36,514 nucleotides of DNA from Bacilli bacterium (GTDB lineage: Bacteria; Bacillota_I; Bacilli_A; RF39; UBA660), in the NCBI GenBank assembly GCA_028703035.1, contig JAQVNR010000003.1, positions 1 through 36,514 on the forward strand, written 5' to 3'. Positions 15,980 through 21,868 of the stretch are shown one piece after another; the first letter of the stretch is position 1, and every line of letters begins with the position of its first letter. Made by a program: the position numbers and the translations under genes. The notes beneath the pieces are model-generated. The model saw only the letters and a program-made list of their open reading frames with translations. It was not told the origin of the DNA and did not search any database.

Positions 15980-17311
15980 CTAATCTAAACTGTCTATTAG
16001 TTCATTAAAATCTATATTGCTTGCAAAAGGAATACCTCCATACATTCCCTTTAAATATTGATTTCTGACATTTAAATTATTTTGAATTCTTCCTTTAAAA
16101 TCAGTGATTGGCAGTAATAATTTATTACCCAAGTTATCAATATTAAAAACATAGATAGAATTTTTAGGAATATCTGTTTCTAAAAGTAAAGTGTTATGAG
16201 TAGTAATAATTAATTGCCCTTTAATACAATTTTTAATGCTATTTAAAATCTGTTCTACCAAGATATCGTGAATGCCAAAATCTAGTTCATCAATAATAAC
16301 AGTTTGCCCTGCACATGCAACAAGTAAACAAGGAAAAATTTTTAAAATGTTTTGAGTACCGGTTGATTCCAATTCAAAATTAATATCAATTAAATTATCA
16401 TAAATTAATTTTTTAAAATATAATTTATATTTTATTTTATTTTCTTCATACTCTCTTTGATAATATACTCCTTTAATATCTGAGTATAAATTTGTGAAAA
16501 ATTCATTTAATAGTGATTCGGCTTGGTTAAGATCTTTTTCTTGTTTAATAGTGATTTCCCCTTCTTCAAGGTTAGTAAGATATTTTAAACCAGTTGTTTC
16601 AAACCTTTTTTTATTTCCAATTTTGGCGATTGTACATATTTCCTGAATATAAGTTAAAAAATTAAATAAAGATTCTGAAGTTCTTTCTTTAACATAATCT
16701 TTTTTCTTATCTTCTATTTCAAAAGATAGTATTGAAAGAAAAGAATGTTTTCCCCAATATTTTTCTAAAATAAGATAAAATTCTGAAAAGAAATTCTTGT
16801 CAGTAAATAAATTATCATTAATTGTTATTTTATTACCTTTAGATAGTTTAAAACAAAAAGTTTTATTTGTATTAATGGCATAGTCTAAACTTTCATTTAC
16901 TATTTCATTATCGTTCATTTCAATTTTATAAACGGCATCTTTATTATTAATTTTAAAGCCAAATTCTAAGACCATATTTTCTTTTGAATCAATAGTCTTA
17001 TAATTAGCTATAATTTCTTCTATGCCCTTATAGCTTTCTTTTAGGTATTTAAAATAATCGTTTATATGCTTTGAAATATGATTATCATCAGAATTATTAA
17101 ATTGTTTCATTATATCTTTTAGCATTTCACTAGATGACATTGTGCGAGTTGTTTCGTAAAGCGTATAAAATGCAGTAGCAAAATTAGATTTTCCAGCTCC
17201 GTTTTCACCATAGATTAATATTAAATCTTTAGGACGGTTTCTTGTTCTCATAAAATCTACTTCTAAATTAGTTAGTGATTTATAATTTTTTAATTTTATA
17301 TATTTAATCAT
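15980..17311 (-). CDS. AAA ATPase, OLD/RloA/AriA-like, defence-associated type
   Basis: MIKYIKLKNYKSLTNLEVDF; Walker A YGENGAGKSNF; Walker B TVIIDELDFGIHD; switch IITTHNTLLLETD. Confidence 0.88.
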   Translation of the reverse strand: MIKYIKLKNYKSLTNLEVDFMRTRNRPKDLILIYGENGAGKSNFATAFYTLYETTRTMSSSEMLKDIMKQFNNSDDNHISKHINDYFKYLKESYKGIEEIIANYKTIDSKENMVLEFGFKINNKDAVYKIEMNDNEIVNESLDYAINTNKTFCFKLSKGNKITINDNLFTDKNFFSEFYLILEKYWGKHSFLSILSFEIEDKKKDYVKERTSESLFNFLTYIQEICTIAKIGNKKRFETTGLKYLTNLEEGEITIKQEKDLNQAESLLNEFFTNLYSDIKGVYYQREYEENKIKYKLYFKKLIYDNLIDINFELESTGTQNILKIFPCLLVACAGQTVIIDELDFGIHDILVEQILNSIKNCIKGQLIITTHNTLLLETDIPKNSIYVFNIDNLGNKLLLPITDFKGRIQNNLNVRNQYLKGMYGGIPFASNIDFNELIDSLD

Positions 17312-17547: not shown

Positions 17548-18753
17548 ATGATAAAAATGAAGAAAACAAAGCCAACATTTGAATTGTGGGAAGTTATTAT
17601 AATTGCATTAATAACTTCAGTAGTGATGAGTGCAACAACTGGGTATGCTCTTTTTACAAATAATAAAGTTAAATCTTGTTCAGCAGTTACTAATAACGAA
17701 AACTTAGGAGAGTTTATTAGTACATATAATTCTATAATTACTGAATATTACAAAGAAGTAGACGAAAAAGGTTTAGTAAATGCGGCAATTAATGGAATGG
17801 TTAATTATTTAGATGATCCTTATACAACATATTTAGACGAAAATAGTAAAGATTTACTTTTAGAATCTTTAAAGGGTGAATATGAAGGTATTGGTGTAGA
17901 GATAACCAAAAGAGAAAATGGAAACATTGAAGTTGTTTCAGTTTTTGAAGATACTCCAGCCTTTGAAGCTGGCTTAATGGTTGGCGATATTATCAAGAGT
18001 ATAAATAATGTTGATGTCACAGAAAAAACTGCAGAAGAAGCAGTTGCAATTATTAAAGATAATAAAAACGTAACCGTTGTAGTCTTGCGAGGAGAAATTG
18101 AGTTATCTTTTAATCTTGAAAAAAAGACATTATATATTCCGGTAATAACTGCTAATATTTATGAAAAAAATGAGCAAAAAGTTGGCTATATTAGAATAAC
18201 CAGATTCTCTGATACAGTTGGAAAGCAGTTTGCTCTAAAACTAAAGCATCTTGAAGAAGATGGTATAACTAGTTTAATAATTGATGTTCGTAATAATACT
18301 GGTGGATATTTAAAAGGAAGCACTGATATTGCCTCAATCTTTTTAGAAGAGGGTAAAGTAATTTACTCACTTCAAAGTAATTTAGATACTAAAAATTATA
18401 AAGATGAAACTAAAGAACAAAAAGATTATAAAGTAGGAATTTTAATTAATAAATCATCAGCATCTGCATCAGAAGTACTAGCTGCAGCTTTAAAATATAG
18501 CTATGGAGCAACCCTAATAGGTACGACTACTTATGGTAAAGGATTAGTTCAACAAACTTCAAATATTAATGATAAATCAATGATTAAATATACAACTGCA
18601 AAATGGCTAACCCCAGCTGGAGATTGTATTGATGGAGTAGGACTAGCTCCTGATATTAATGTAGAGCTTACTTTAGAAGAAGGCGAAATATTGACTGATG
18701 AAAATGATATTCAGTTAGAAAGAGCTATAGAAAATATAACGCAAGTAAATTAA
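17548..18753 (+). CDS. S41 family C-terminal processing peptidase with PDZ domain
   Basis: PYTTYLDENSKDLLLESLKGEYEGIGVEI; PDZ VSVFEDTPAFEAGLMVGDIIKSINN; VRNNTGGYLKGSTDIA; NKSSASASEVLAAALK. Confidence 0.95.
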   Translation: MIKMKKTKPTFELWEVIIIALITSVVMSATTGYALFTNNKVKSCSAVTNNENLGEFISTYNSIITEYYKEVDEKGLVNAAINGMVNYLDDPYTTYLDENSKDLLLESLKGEYEGIGVEITKRENGNIEVVSVFEDTPAFEAGLMVGDIIKSINNVDVTEKTAEEAVAIIKDNKNVTVVVLRGEIELSFNLEKKTLYIPVITANIYEKNEQKVGYIRITRFSDTVGKQFALKLKHLEEDGITSLIIDVRNNTGGYLKGSTDIASIFLEEGKVIYSLQSNLDTKNYKDETKEQKDYKVGILINKSSASASEVLAAALKYSYGATLIGTTTYGKGLVQQTSNINDKSMIKYTTAKWLTPAGDCIDGVGLAPDINVELTLEEGEILTDENDIQLERAIENITQVN

Positions 18754-18790
18754 AAATGGTTATTCCAACCAAAAAAAGGAAAATAAATTT

Positions 18791-18833
18791 AATGTATTAA
18801 TTATCCAAAATATGTTATTATAATTAATACATT
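18791..18833. promoter_or_regulatory. Operator/promoter of the Panacea-HipA operon
   Basis: Perfect 14-bp inverted repeat AATGTATTAATTAT (18791-18804)/ATAATTAATACATT (18820-18833); TATAAT at 18819-18824. Confidence 0.65.
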
Positions 18834-18845
18834 GGGGTGATAAGA

Positions 18846-19343
18846 ATGAATTTAGAAGCAATTTTTAAAGATATTATTGAAAAGTCTAATATAGATACTA
18901 TCAAAATAGCTAATCTTGTTATTGATTATTGTAATAATAATAAAATAGATATAACTAATTTAAAATTACTTAAATTACTTTACTTTATTAATATCGAAAA
19001 TTTAAATAAAACAAATGGTAAACCTATTTTTAAAGAGGAATTTTTAGCATGGCGTCATGGGCCTGTACTTTTATCTGTATATGATTATTTTAAATTTGGT
19101 ATTATTTATCCAAATATAAATGAAGTGGAAAAGATAAAACTAAGTTTTAATCAACAAATATTATCGACGATTGATGAGGTATTAAAAAAACTTGCTAAAG
19201 TAGAAGTTTGGAAATTAGTTGAAAAATCACATGAAGATAATAGTCCTTGGTATAAAGTATATCACGCAAATAAAGATGAACATGGAATATGCGAGGCTCC
19301 TATAAGTCATAGTGACATTTTTAATTATTATAAAGATATATGA
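18846..19343 (+). CDS. Panacea/DUF4065 (SocA-like) domain protein, predicted antitoxin
   Basis: IANLVIDYCNNNKIDITNLKLLKLLYFINIE ... FKEEFLAWRHGPVLLSVYDYFK is the typical Panacea/GepA pattern. GGGGTGAT SD then ATG 18846. Confidence 0.82.
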   Translation: MNLEAIFKDIIEKSNIDTIKIANLVIDYCNNNKIDITNLKLLKLLYFINIENLNKTNGKPIFKEEFLAWRHGPVLLSVYDYFKFGIIYPNINEVEKIKLSFNQQILSTIDEVLKKLAKVEVWKLVEKSHEDNSPWYKVYHANKDEHGICEAPISHSDIFNYYKDI

Positions 19344-20254
19344 AAAAATATCCAATTATAAATATGGATCCAAAAGGTGATTTACCAGAAAATTTAGGGA
19401 CTAAGAAAAAATCTTTTGAAAATGTAAATGGCAAGAGAGCGCTTGTTAAAATGAATGTTTACAAAGAAATGCCAGATGGAAGTTTTAATGTAGAAGATGA
19501 AAGAAATTCGCATAATGTTTCCGAAAAATTTTTTTCTGAAATAGCTTTATTTCTTGGATTTAATTGTGTACACATAGACTTTGTGATAGATTCGAATTCC
19601 TTTAACTGGCTATCAAGTTATGATTTTAACAAAGCAGGAGTAAATACGTTCTCTGGTAAAGCGTTGTATACGATTCACAAACCTGAGATTATAAAAAGAG
19701 ATTCAAAACACGGTATTGATAATGATTATCATTATGAAGATATCTTAAATATTCTTTATCATTATAGTTCCAATAGTTATAAATTAATTAGAAATTTTAA
19801 TAAAATGATGATTATGGATGCTCTAACAGGAGAAAGTGATCGACATTATGAAAATTGGGGTATTGCTAAAGAAAACAACGAGTATTTATTATTACCGATG
19901 TATGATAATTCAGCATGTTTATTACATTCTGCTCGGAATGAACAATCTCTACAAAACATAAAACGAAAAGATTTTGAAAATTATTGTAGAAAATCTATTT
20001 CTAAAATAATGATAAATAATAAAAAAACGACTCATTTTGACTTTTTAAGATTATTATTAAGTAGTTTTGAAAGTCAAGAAAGACAATATTTAATTAGTGA
20101 TATAACGCATTTAACTAAATTAACTAATGAAGTAATTCATGATATAGTAAATAAAGTTCCTGATATTTTTTGTACTAAAGAGCATAAAAAAAATATAATA
20201 AAATATATAATAATAAGAAGAGATTATATATTAAATATTGTGGAGGAAATATGA
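19340..20254 (+). CDS. HipA-like Ser/Thr kinase, short HipT/CtkA-like form
   Basis: LGTKKKSFENVNGKRALVKMN; catalytic GESDRHYENWGI (HxxN) and metal site MYDNSACLL. ATGA overlap with the upstream gene. Confidence 0.82.
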   Translation: MKKYPIINMDPKGDLPENLGTKKKSFENVNGKRALVKMNVYKEMPDGSFNVEDERNSHNVSEKFFSEIALFLGFNCVHIDFVIDSNSFNWLSSYDFNKAGVNTFSGKALYTIHKPEIIKRDSKHGIDNDYHYEDILNILYHYSSNSYKLIRNFNKMMIMDALTGESDRHYENWGIAKENNEYLLLPMYDNSACLLHSARNEQSLQNIKRKDFENYCRKSISKIMINNKKTTHFDFLRLLLSSFESQERQYLISDITHLTKLTNEVIHDIVNKVPDIFCTKEHKKNIIKYIIIRRDYILNIVEEI

Positions 20255-20631
20255 ATAAATTGATTTTAATATGGCATAATGAAGGTTCTAATACAAACGT
20301 AATTGGAGAGTTAATAAAAGAACAAGATTATTATACTTTTAAATATACTAATTTCGAACTAAATGATTTACAACTTTTTTCAGAAAAAGGATTGTTTCCT
20401 GGCTTTTTTGATATTAATACTTTTTATAAAAGTAAATTTCTTTTTCAGAATATAAAAGATAGACTACCTCAGGAAAATAGAGTTGATTATTATAATTTAT
20501 TAGAGCAATATAATATAAAAAATCCAAAAGATGAATTTGAAGTTTTAACAAAAACTGAAGGTAAAATAAATTCTGATAACTTCAAGTTTGTAACTCAAGA
20601 AAAACTATTTGAGTTACAAAAAAATCAATAA
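20251..20631 (+). CDS. Stand-alone HipA N-terminal domain protein (HipS-like)
   Basis: IWHNEGSNTNVIGELIKEQDYYTFKY ... FPGFFD ... LFQNIKDRLPQENRVDYYNLLEQYNI ... FEVLTKTEGKI resembles the HipA N-subdomain. ATGA overlap with the kinase gene. Confidence 0.7.
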   Translation: MNKLILIWHNEGSNTNVIGELIKEQDYYTFKYTNFELNDLQLFSEKGLFPGFFDINTFYKSKFLFQNIKDRLPQENRVDYYNLLEQYNIKNPKDEFEVLTKTEGKINSDNFKFVTQEKLFELQKNQ

Positions 20632-20667
20632 AGTATAAACTTTATAACTAAAACTGATAAAATTATT

Positions 20668-20695
20668 GTCTTTTCACTAGTGAAAAGACTTTTTA
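20668..20695 (+). terminator. Intrinsic terminator
   Basis: GTCTTTTCACTAGTGAAAAGAC followed by T run. Confidence 0.75.
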
Positions 20696-20726
20696 AGTGT
20701 TAGAATATAATTATGAGAGGTATATT

Positions 20727-21104
20727 ATGATTAAGGAATTTAAAGAATTTATTTCTAAGGGAAATGTTTTAGATTTAGCAGTTGGTGTTATTATTGGGGC
20801 TGCGTTTAGTAAAATTGTTTCATCTCTTGTTGCTGATATAATAATGCCGTTCTTTGGAGTTATAACAGGTGGAATCGACTTTACTAGTTATTCTATTACT
20901 TGGAAAGAAGCTAATATAAATTATGGGATGTTTCTTCAAAATATAATAGATTTCTTAATTGTTGCATTCTGTATTTTTATGTTTATAAAAATAATTAATA
21001 AATTTCGTAAAACTGAAGAAGATATAAAAGAAGAAGTTAAGTCTGAAGAAGTTATTCTTTTAACAGAAATAAGAGATAGTCTAAAAAAAATTAATAAAAA
21101 ATAA
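20727..21104 (+). CDS. mscL: Large-conductance mechanosensitive channel MscL
   Basis: [44 protein letters not shown]. Start reassigned to ATG 20727. Confidence 0.97.
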
Positions 21105-21121
21105 TATAGTTTGGGGGAATT

Positions 21122-21868
21122 ATGGAAATATTAGAGTTTAAACATTTGAAATTAAAAATAAGATTAGAACCATTTATTAATATTATTGGGAGTGTTTCAT
21201 CTGGAAAGACAACTCTTTTAAAAATGATGATTAATAAAATTCCAAGTACTAGTGTCTATATAGATAATAAACCATTATCTTCTTATACTAATGATTTTAA
21301 AAAGAAAAACTTAACTGCTTGCTTAAATGATCTAAAATTTAATACTGAATATGTAAATGAAGAACTTTTATTTTATCAAAAAATCTTAAATGTTGAAGTG
21401 AGTACTGCTTATGATAACATTAAAGCTTTTGATATTTTTTTTAAATTAAGTGAGATTCTTGAGACAAAGATAGAATATTTAACAATAAGTGAAAAAGCAT
21501 TAATAAAAATATTATCGTTACTTATCTTAAATCCGCGGATTTTAGGTATAGATACACTACTTTCATATTTACCATTAGAGATGAAGTTAAAAATTATAAA
21601 ATACGCTAAAAACAATAATATCAGCATTATAAATATAACCTCAACGTCTGAAGAATTATTATTAGGTAGTGATATAATAGTTTTAGATGATTATCAAGTT
21701 AAAGAATATGATACTACTAAGAAAATATTGGAAAAAGAAAAACTTTTATTAGAAATAGGTTTTGAACTTCCTTTTGTAATTTCTCTTAGTAGTGGTTTAA
21801 ATTATTATAATTTATTAAATAAAAAATATTATAGTAATAAAACCTTAGTGAGGGCTATATGGAAGTAA
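21122..21868 (+). CDS. Degenerate ABC ATPase, EcfA-like
   Basis: Walker A GSVSSGKTTLLKMM retained; signature (LTISEKALIKI) and Walker B (ILGIDTLLSYL) degenerate; C-terminal GFELPFVISLSSGL resembles EcfA. Confidence 0.7.
   Translation: MEILEFKHLKLKIRLEPFINIIGSVSSGKTTLLKMMINKIPSTSVYIDNKPLSSYTNDFKKKNLTACLNDLKFNTEYVNEELLFYQKILNVEVSTAYDNIKAFDIFFKLSEILETKIEYLTISEKALIKILSLLILNPRILGIDTLLSYLPLEMKLKIIKYAKNNNISIINITSTSEELLLGSDIIVLDDYQVKEYDTTKKILEKEKLLLEIGFELPFVISLSSGLNYYNLLNKKYYSNKTLVRAIWK

Follow-up and report, generated by a model that had tools for sequence, protein, structure and literature searches.

Described split Hip systems and Panacea domains

The closest described relatives of the locus analysed here are the hipIN and hipJS systems. 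In hipIN, a short kinase gene is followed by the gene for HipN, which consists of a HipS-like part and a HIRAN domain (Gerdes, Baerentsen and Brodersen 2021, PMC8262856). In hipJS, the kinase is followed by HipS. The same authors described hipMP and hipL, the latter with all parts fused. They speculated that a loss of HIRAN turned hipIN into hipJS; according to their table, none of the clade XI members had been analysed (PMC8262856). In HipBST, HipS is the antitoxin, and the HipS of Escherichia coli uses a Trp residue to block HipT (PMC10627512). A Trp at the kinase active site is found in many, but not all, HipS proteins (PMC10627512). PADLOC additionally holds PDC-M03, a candidate phage-defence system. 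Our literature search on PDC-M03 found no paper, and in the papers that we found, no HipI, HipJ or PDC-M03 member had been tested for toxicity or defence.

The Panacea domain can neutralise a wide range of unrelated toxins (PMC8832971, PMC10440598). Panacea is a tested antitoxin domain: in two tested systems, stand-alone Panacea domains directly neutralise their toxins, and a sensor role has been proposed for Panacea where another domain neutralises (PMC10440598). A Hip kinase is not named as a Panacea partner in the main texts of these two papers (PMC8832971, PMC10440598); NetFlax states that it missed HipBA and that its scope is two-gene systems only.

A Panacea gene in front of a kinase and a HipS-like gene

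We analysed a stretch of DNA of 36,514 nucleotides from an uncultured Bacilli-type bacterium; 'the window' refers to this whole stretch. It carries an operon with the gene order Panacea, kinase, HipS-like, and the following features:

18791-18833, no strand: perfect 14-bp inverted repeat, presumed operator/promoter (repeat search)
18846-19343, + strand: Panacea gene from ATG 18846, with GTG 18837 as alternative start (ORF list, Pfam)
19340-20254, + strand: kinase gene, 304 aa (Pfam HipA_C, PADLOC PDC-M03A, CtkA by sequence and fold, catalytic residues, tree)
20251-20631, + strand: HipS-like gene, 126 aa (PADLOC PDC-M03B over the first half, alignment with HIRAN-bearing partners, hhalign)
20668-20689, no strand: stem-loop with T run 3' of the operon, terminator-like in both directions (sequence scan)

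The three open reading frames lie where the preliminary description had placed them, and both junctions, Panacea/kinase and kinase/HipS-like, are ATGA overlaps, so that the kinase start sits within the Panacea stop. The first protein was confirmed as a stand-alone SocA/DUF4065 protein (Pfam SocA_Panacea, E=8e-17). Its length is 165 aa from ATG 18846 or 168 aa from GTG 18837; the ATG is the likely start, because the GTG falls inside the ribosome-binding-site-like sequence GGGGTGAT. In profile searches, none of the three operon proteins matched an HTH family.

The kinase branches within a HIRAN-bearing clade

The kinase matched Pfam HipA_C (E=1.6e-8) and, over nearly its full length, PADLOC PDC-M03A (9e-42). 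The motifs reported in the preliminary description are intact, with DRHYENWG at residues 167-174 and MYDNSAC at residues 187-193. All Hip catalytic residues (K37, E62, D167, N172 and D189) are present, and these as well as R168 and H169 are invariant or nearly so across relatives. The AlphaFold model was good (pLDDT 89, pTM 0.90). When the kinase was compared by sequence with PDB, CtkA was the only clearly significant solved relative (2e-6). CtkA also came first in the fold search (8.6e-14), followed by HipA and HipT. The window kinase is thus of the CtkA type in sequence and fold, and it is short, with the core Hip motifs and without N-subdomain 1, as in hipIN and hipJS. Judged by sequence and predicted structure, it is a short HipA_C/CtkA-like Ser/Thr kinase of the HipI/HipJ type (PDC-M03A).

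In kinase trees, the window sequence fell inside a HIRAN-bearing clade with support of 98/94 in one tree and 97/90 in another. In the latter, fused HipL was next outside the window's clade. The branch of the window kinase was long, and the other HIRAN-less pairs sat elsewhere in the tree.

The partner is HipS-like and ends where HIRAN would begin

The 126-aa protein encoded directly 3' of the kinase, at an ATGA junction as expected of hipIN and hipJS, matched PADLOC PDC-M03B (3e-24) over the first half only of a model of ~250 residues. At 43 of the 67 kinase loci from genomes and viral contigs, the kinase is directly followed by a HipS-like protein with HIRAN. The first 120 residues of these partners align with the window protein and the last 105 are HIRAN, which Pfam confirmed in three partners (3e-14 to 1e-11). 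The window protein stops where HIRAN starts in these relatives and lacks the C-terminal HIRAN of hipIN; it corresponds to the N-terminal half of HipN/PDC-M03B.

The preliminary description had likened this protein to the N-subdomain of HipA. Searches of Pfam, NCBIfam and PDB with the protein or its profile gave nothing significant, and Couple_hipA was weakly touched by three of 23 relatives. Aligned by hhalign with a HipA N-domain profile (Couple_hipA domains including that of E. coli HipA), the profile of the HipS-like family matched along 93 collinear columns (probability 95.6, P=1.2e-8), compared with P>=0.029 for 40 column-permuted controls and P>=0.2 for other families. The HipN-type profile and the HipA-N profile each hit the proteins of two loci (L194 and L197). 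Foldseek with the AlphaFold model of the HipS-like protein retrieved no HipS or HipA chain (all E>1). The likeness therefore holds at the level of sequence profiles, where it shows the third protein to be homologous to HipS and HipA N-subdomain 1, and it is not seen by fold search. This protein has a single Trp, at residue 8, and so cannot use a Trp wedge as E. coli HipS does; should it inhibit the kinase, the mechanism must be a different one.

More distant relatives combine the HipS-like core with a resolvase/HTH-like tail (L003, L004, L005, L020, L023) or have the core without a tail (L021, L072, L076, L239, L241). A tail can thus be HIRAN, resolvase/HTH-like or nothing, so the second module appears exchangeable. 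With the window kinase placed among HIRAN-bearing relatives in the trees, loss of HIRAN is the simplest history. The window partner has probably lost its HIRAN half in this lineage; the tree is moderate evidence for this, given the long branch. Kinase-HipS pairs with neither HIRAN nor Panacea were found at four loci (L072, L076, L239 and L241), and HIRAN loss therefore does not require Panacea.

Other arrangements were also seen. Viral contigs (IMG/VR) contained hipIN pairs (L090 and L329), and another such contig (L328:2227-3687) encodes a HipL-type protein in which kinase, HipS-like part and HIRAN are fused. At L194:1444-2755 (genome G397), the HipS-like gene lies upstream of the kinase gene and overlaps it, with no HTH gene adjoining.

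The trio was found in one genome

We surveyed the surroundings of both genes. The Panacea side covered loci from 32 of 147 family genomes, loci from 44 of 397 class genomes and 80 viral loci; among those fetched, no Hip kinase or HipS gene lay within the flanks, the window excepted. On the kinase side, 66 genome loci, four viral loci and the loci fetched from 36 of 289 family genomes had no Panacea gene within the flanks. No second pairing of Panacea with a Hip kinase thus turned up at some 140 Panacea and some 100 kinase loci, in surveys that sample species and rely on short patterns and so may miss rare copies. With the kinase as query, phage and plasmid records gave no match, and single-protein scans of viral contigs with the kinase or the Panacea protein returned nothing. 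As far as these searches reach, the Panacea-kinase-HipS trio is known from one genome, and its new element is the Panacea gene in front. The preliminary description had named a lack of conservation of the trio beyond this genome as grounds for refuting it, and for now this is the situation within the reach of these searches: only the kinase-HipS pair is conserved, and the one other copy of the locus, described below, has Panacea without the pair.

The partners of other Panacea genes were of a different kind. The nearest Panacea relatives (L136, L137, L138 and L145) have coiled-coil or membrane proteins as partners and no kinases. At these loci and in a Helicobacter rodentium prophage (L246:3007-4312), Panacea is closely followed by a coiled-coil protein of 268-321 aa with hydrophobic, membrane-like C-terminal segments, a recurring type unlike the window kinase. 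Several genomes of the same class carry many Panacea genes (nine matches in G340, six in G241, five in G293 and three with identical scores in G300), some of which appear to be repeated copies. The window's own genome has further Panacea genes on two contigs, G000:C60 (L101) and G000:C56 (L125); the one on G000:C60 encodes a 320-aa multidomain protein and has a 104-aa gene just upstream.

A related genome keeps Panacea and lacks the pair and the upstream repeat

We compared the site between the S41 peptidase gene and mscL/ecfA in related genomes (loci L121, L176, L177 and L178). The window interval (18753-21122) contains the trio and mscL. G003, a genome of the same genus, has Panacea alone and mscL: its Panacea is 81% identical to that of the window and runs directly into the sequence found after the hipS stop of the window, the kinase and HipS genes being cleanly missing. 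No copy of the kinase was found elsewhere in G003. Panacea evolves faster than its neighbours (dN/dS of 0.36, compared with 0.07-0.18); its frame is nonetheless open. The S41 peptidase-ecfA interval is empty in two congeners (G002 and G007), and in a third relative, G001, it is occupied by a pair of genes resembling a toxin-antitoxin system and by a gene for an AbiLi-like ATPase; mscL itself may be present or absent. The interval is a variable site that collects defence-type genes. Beyond the S41 peptidase gene, on the side away from the operon, the window carries a gene for an AbiLi/AriA-related AAA ATPase (15980-17311, - strand; PADLOC AbiLi 8e-42, Pfam AAA_21 1.8e-15), and an AAA gene occupies the same position in G003.

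Upstream of the operon, an inverted repeat has the arms AATGTATTAATTAT (18791-18804) and ATAATTAATACATT (18820-18833) with 15 nt between them. The right arm overlaps a TATAAT at 18819-18824. No other perfect repeat in the window has arms of at least 13 and a loop of at most 20; this one occurs once in the genome, and shuffling of the intergenic stretch produced a repeat of equal length in 1 of 2000 cases. We presume that the repeat is the operator/promoter of the operon. In G003, exactly this 43-bp block (18791-18833) is missing as well, so that a genome that keeps Panacea lacks both the operator-like repeat and the kinase pair. That G003 lost two segments, one on each side of Panacea, seems simpler than that the window gained two.

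Repeats of this kind are not general among hipIN loci, in which a 14-bp repeat was found at L044 and an 11-bp repeat at L034. The former (L044:2780-2823) is perfect, has 16 nt between its arms and lies 27 nt before the hipIN kinase start; it resembles the window repeat in shape, differs in sequence, and has no counterpart at most other hipIN loci. The upstream repeats at L043 and L049 look like terminators of the preceding gene.

How Panacea may act on the kinase

We give even weight for and against the proposal that the operon is a split Hip module of the hipIN/hipJS (PDC-M03) type, with a partner minus HIRAN, that is controlled by the stand-alone Panacea encoded first. The kinase would be toxic, probably with a component of translation as its phosphorylation target, as for HipA and HipT, and the HipS-like protein would keep it inactive. 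Panacea, as the first product of a shared message, would provide a second control, either as co-antitoxin or, more likely, as a sensor that replaces HIRAN, and a trigger such as phage infection would cause it to release the kinase. The specific version of this proposal, in which neutralisation is by the HipS-like protein, Panacea is a trans-acting sensor in place of HIRAN and the operon is the first link between Panacea and a Hip kinase, we put forward tentatively, as one that we would sooner expect to fail than to hold. The preliminary description had Panacea replacing the HTH antitoxin; what it appears to replace instead is the HIRAN half of the partner. A genome such as G003, with Panacea and without kinase, HipS and repeat, is expected if the repeat acts for the unit as a whole and an antitoxin left behind does no harm. 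Against the proposal we count the occurrence of the trio in one genome, the HIRAN-less pairs that have no Panacea, the missing Trp wedge, the fold search that gave no HipS, the long branch of the window kinase and the persistence of Panacea in G003 without the kinase, which also fits an independent gene.

The strongest alternative, which we consider unlikely, is that a kinase-HipS pair sufficient in itself entered a site that gathers defence genes, behind an unrelated, pre-existing Panacea gene that has no role in kinase control. In G003 the corresponding site has Panacea without the pair, the interval varies among relatives, from empty to occupied by toxin-antitoxin and AbiLi-like genes, and kinase-HipS pairs elsewhere need no Panacea. 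A chance insertion is harder to reconcile with a kinase start that lies within the Panacea stop, and, as G003 lacks both repeat and kinase pair, insertion would have had to occur twice, once on each side of Panacea. A promoter scan of the + strand gave no candidate site before the kinase, a weak argument since the scan also missed the presumed Panacea promoter.

We consider it rather improbable that Panacea is the actual antitoxin and binds the kinase directly, with the HipS-like protein forming part of the structure of the active kinase, in the manner of HipA N-subdomain 1. The direct neutralisation by stand-alone Panacea in two tested systems (PMC10440598), the antitoxin-first gene order and the lack of the Trp by which E. 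coli HipS inhibits would all agree with such an arrangement. Yet a HipS-like protein, with HIRAN, is the sole partner in the sister systems and must be the inhibitor there if those are toxin-antitoxin systems, and related kinases with partners other than HipS exist. That the operon is no toxin-antitoxin or defence system at all, the kinase being a signalling enzyme with regulatory partners and no effect on growth, would fit the papers found, in which no HipI/HipJ or PDC-M03 member had been tested for toxicity or defence (for clade XI, the table of PMC8262856), and is very improbable in view of the patchy presence of the genes, the variable site among defence genes, the kinship with HipA and HipT and the Panacea partner.

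If control by Panacea is correct, Hip kinases join the partners of Panacea, and the control module of Hip systems (HIRAN, resolvase/HTH tail or Panacea) would be exchangeable while the core of kinase and HipS stays. In the systems for which Ernits et al. propose that Panacea serves chiefly as a sensor, Panacea and the neutralising domain are fused and hard to separate; here, the likely inhibitor (HipS-like) and Panacea are separate, and the two roles could be tested gene by gene.

Comparison with known systems

The modular, split-Hip character of the operon, with Panacea as a component, agrees with its anatomy as proposed in the preliminary description; its nearest kind is hipIN/hipJS and PDC-M03, not a rearranged HipBST. 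The position of the HipS-like gene behind the kinase had been taken as a departure from HipBST. We dropped this order as a novel reversal, because kinase-then-HipS has been published as hipIN/hipJS (Gerdes 2021) and the window kinase with its HipS-like partner is an ordinary clade XI arrangement (PMC8262856).

HipBST of E. coli O127 and Legionella pneumophila likewise has three genes, with a split kinase and a HipS-type partner. Unlike HipBST, the window has no HTH protein HipB, its order is Panacea, kinase, HipS in place of HipB, HipS, HipT, its kinase is nearer to CtkA than to HipT, and the Trp wedge of HipS is missing. With PDC-M03 it shares adjacent A and B genes, A being matched nearly in full; B is matched over its first half only, and Panacea is added.

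With hipIN the window shares a short Hip kinase that lacks N-subdomain 1, the HipS-like gene directly downstream and the placement of the kinase within the HIRAN-bearing clade, whereas the partner lacks the HIRAN half and a Panacea gene lies upstream in the same operon. It resembles hipJS in that the kinase is followed by a HipS-only partner of about 100-130 aa, and differs in the upstream Panacea gene and in a kinase that groups with HIRAN-bearing relatives and not with the other HIRAN-less pairs found. As in PanAT systems, Panacea comes first and overlaps a downstream candidate toxin gene. Unlike the PanAT systems in the main texts of the two Panacea papers, which name no Hip kinase as partner, the operon pairs Panacea with such a kinase, and its third gene encodes a second likely inhibitor.
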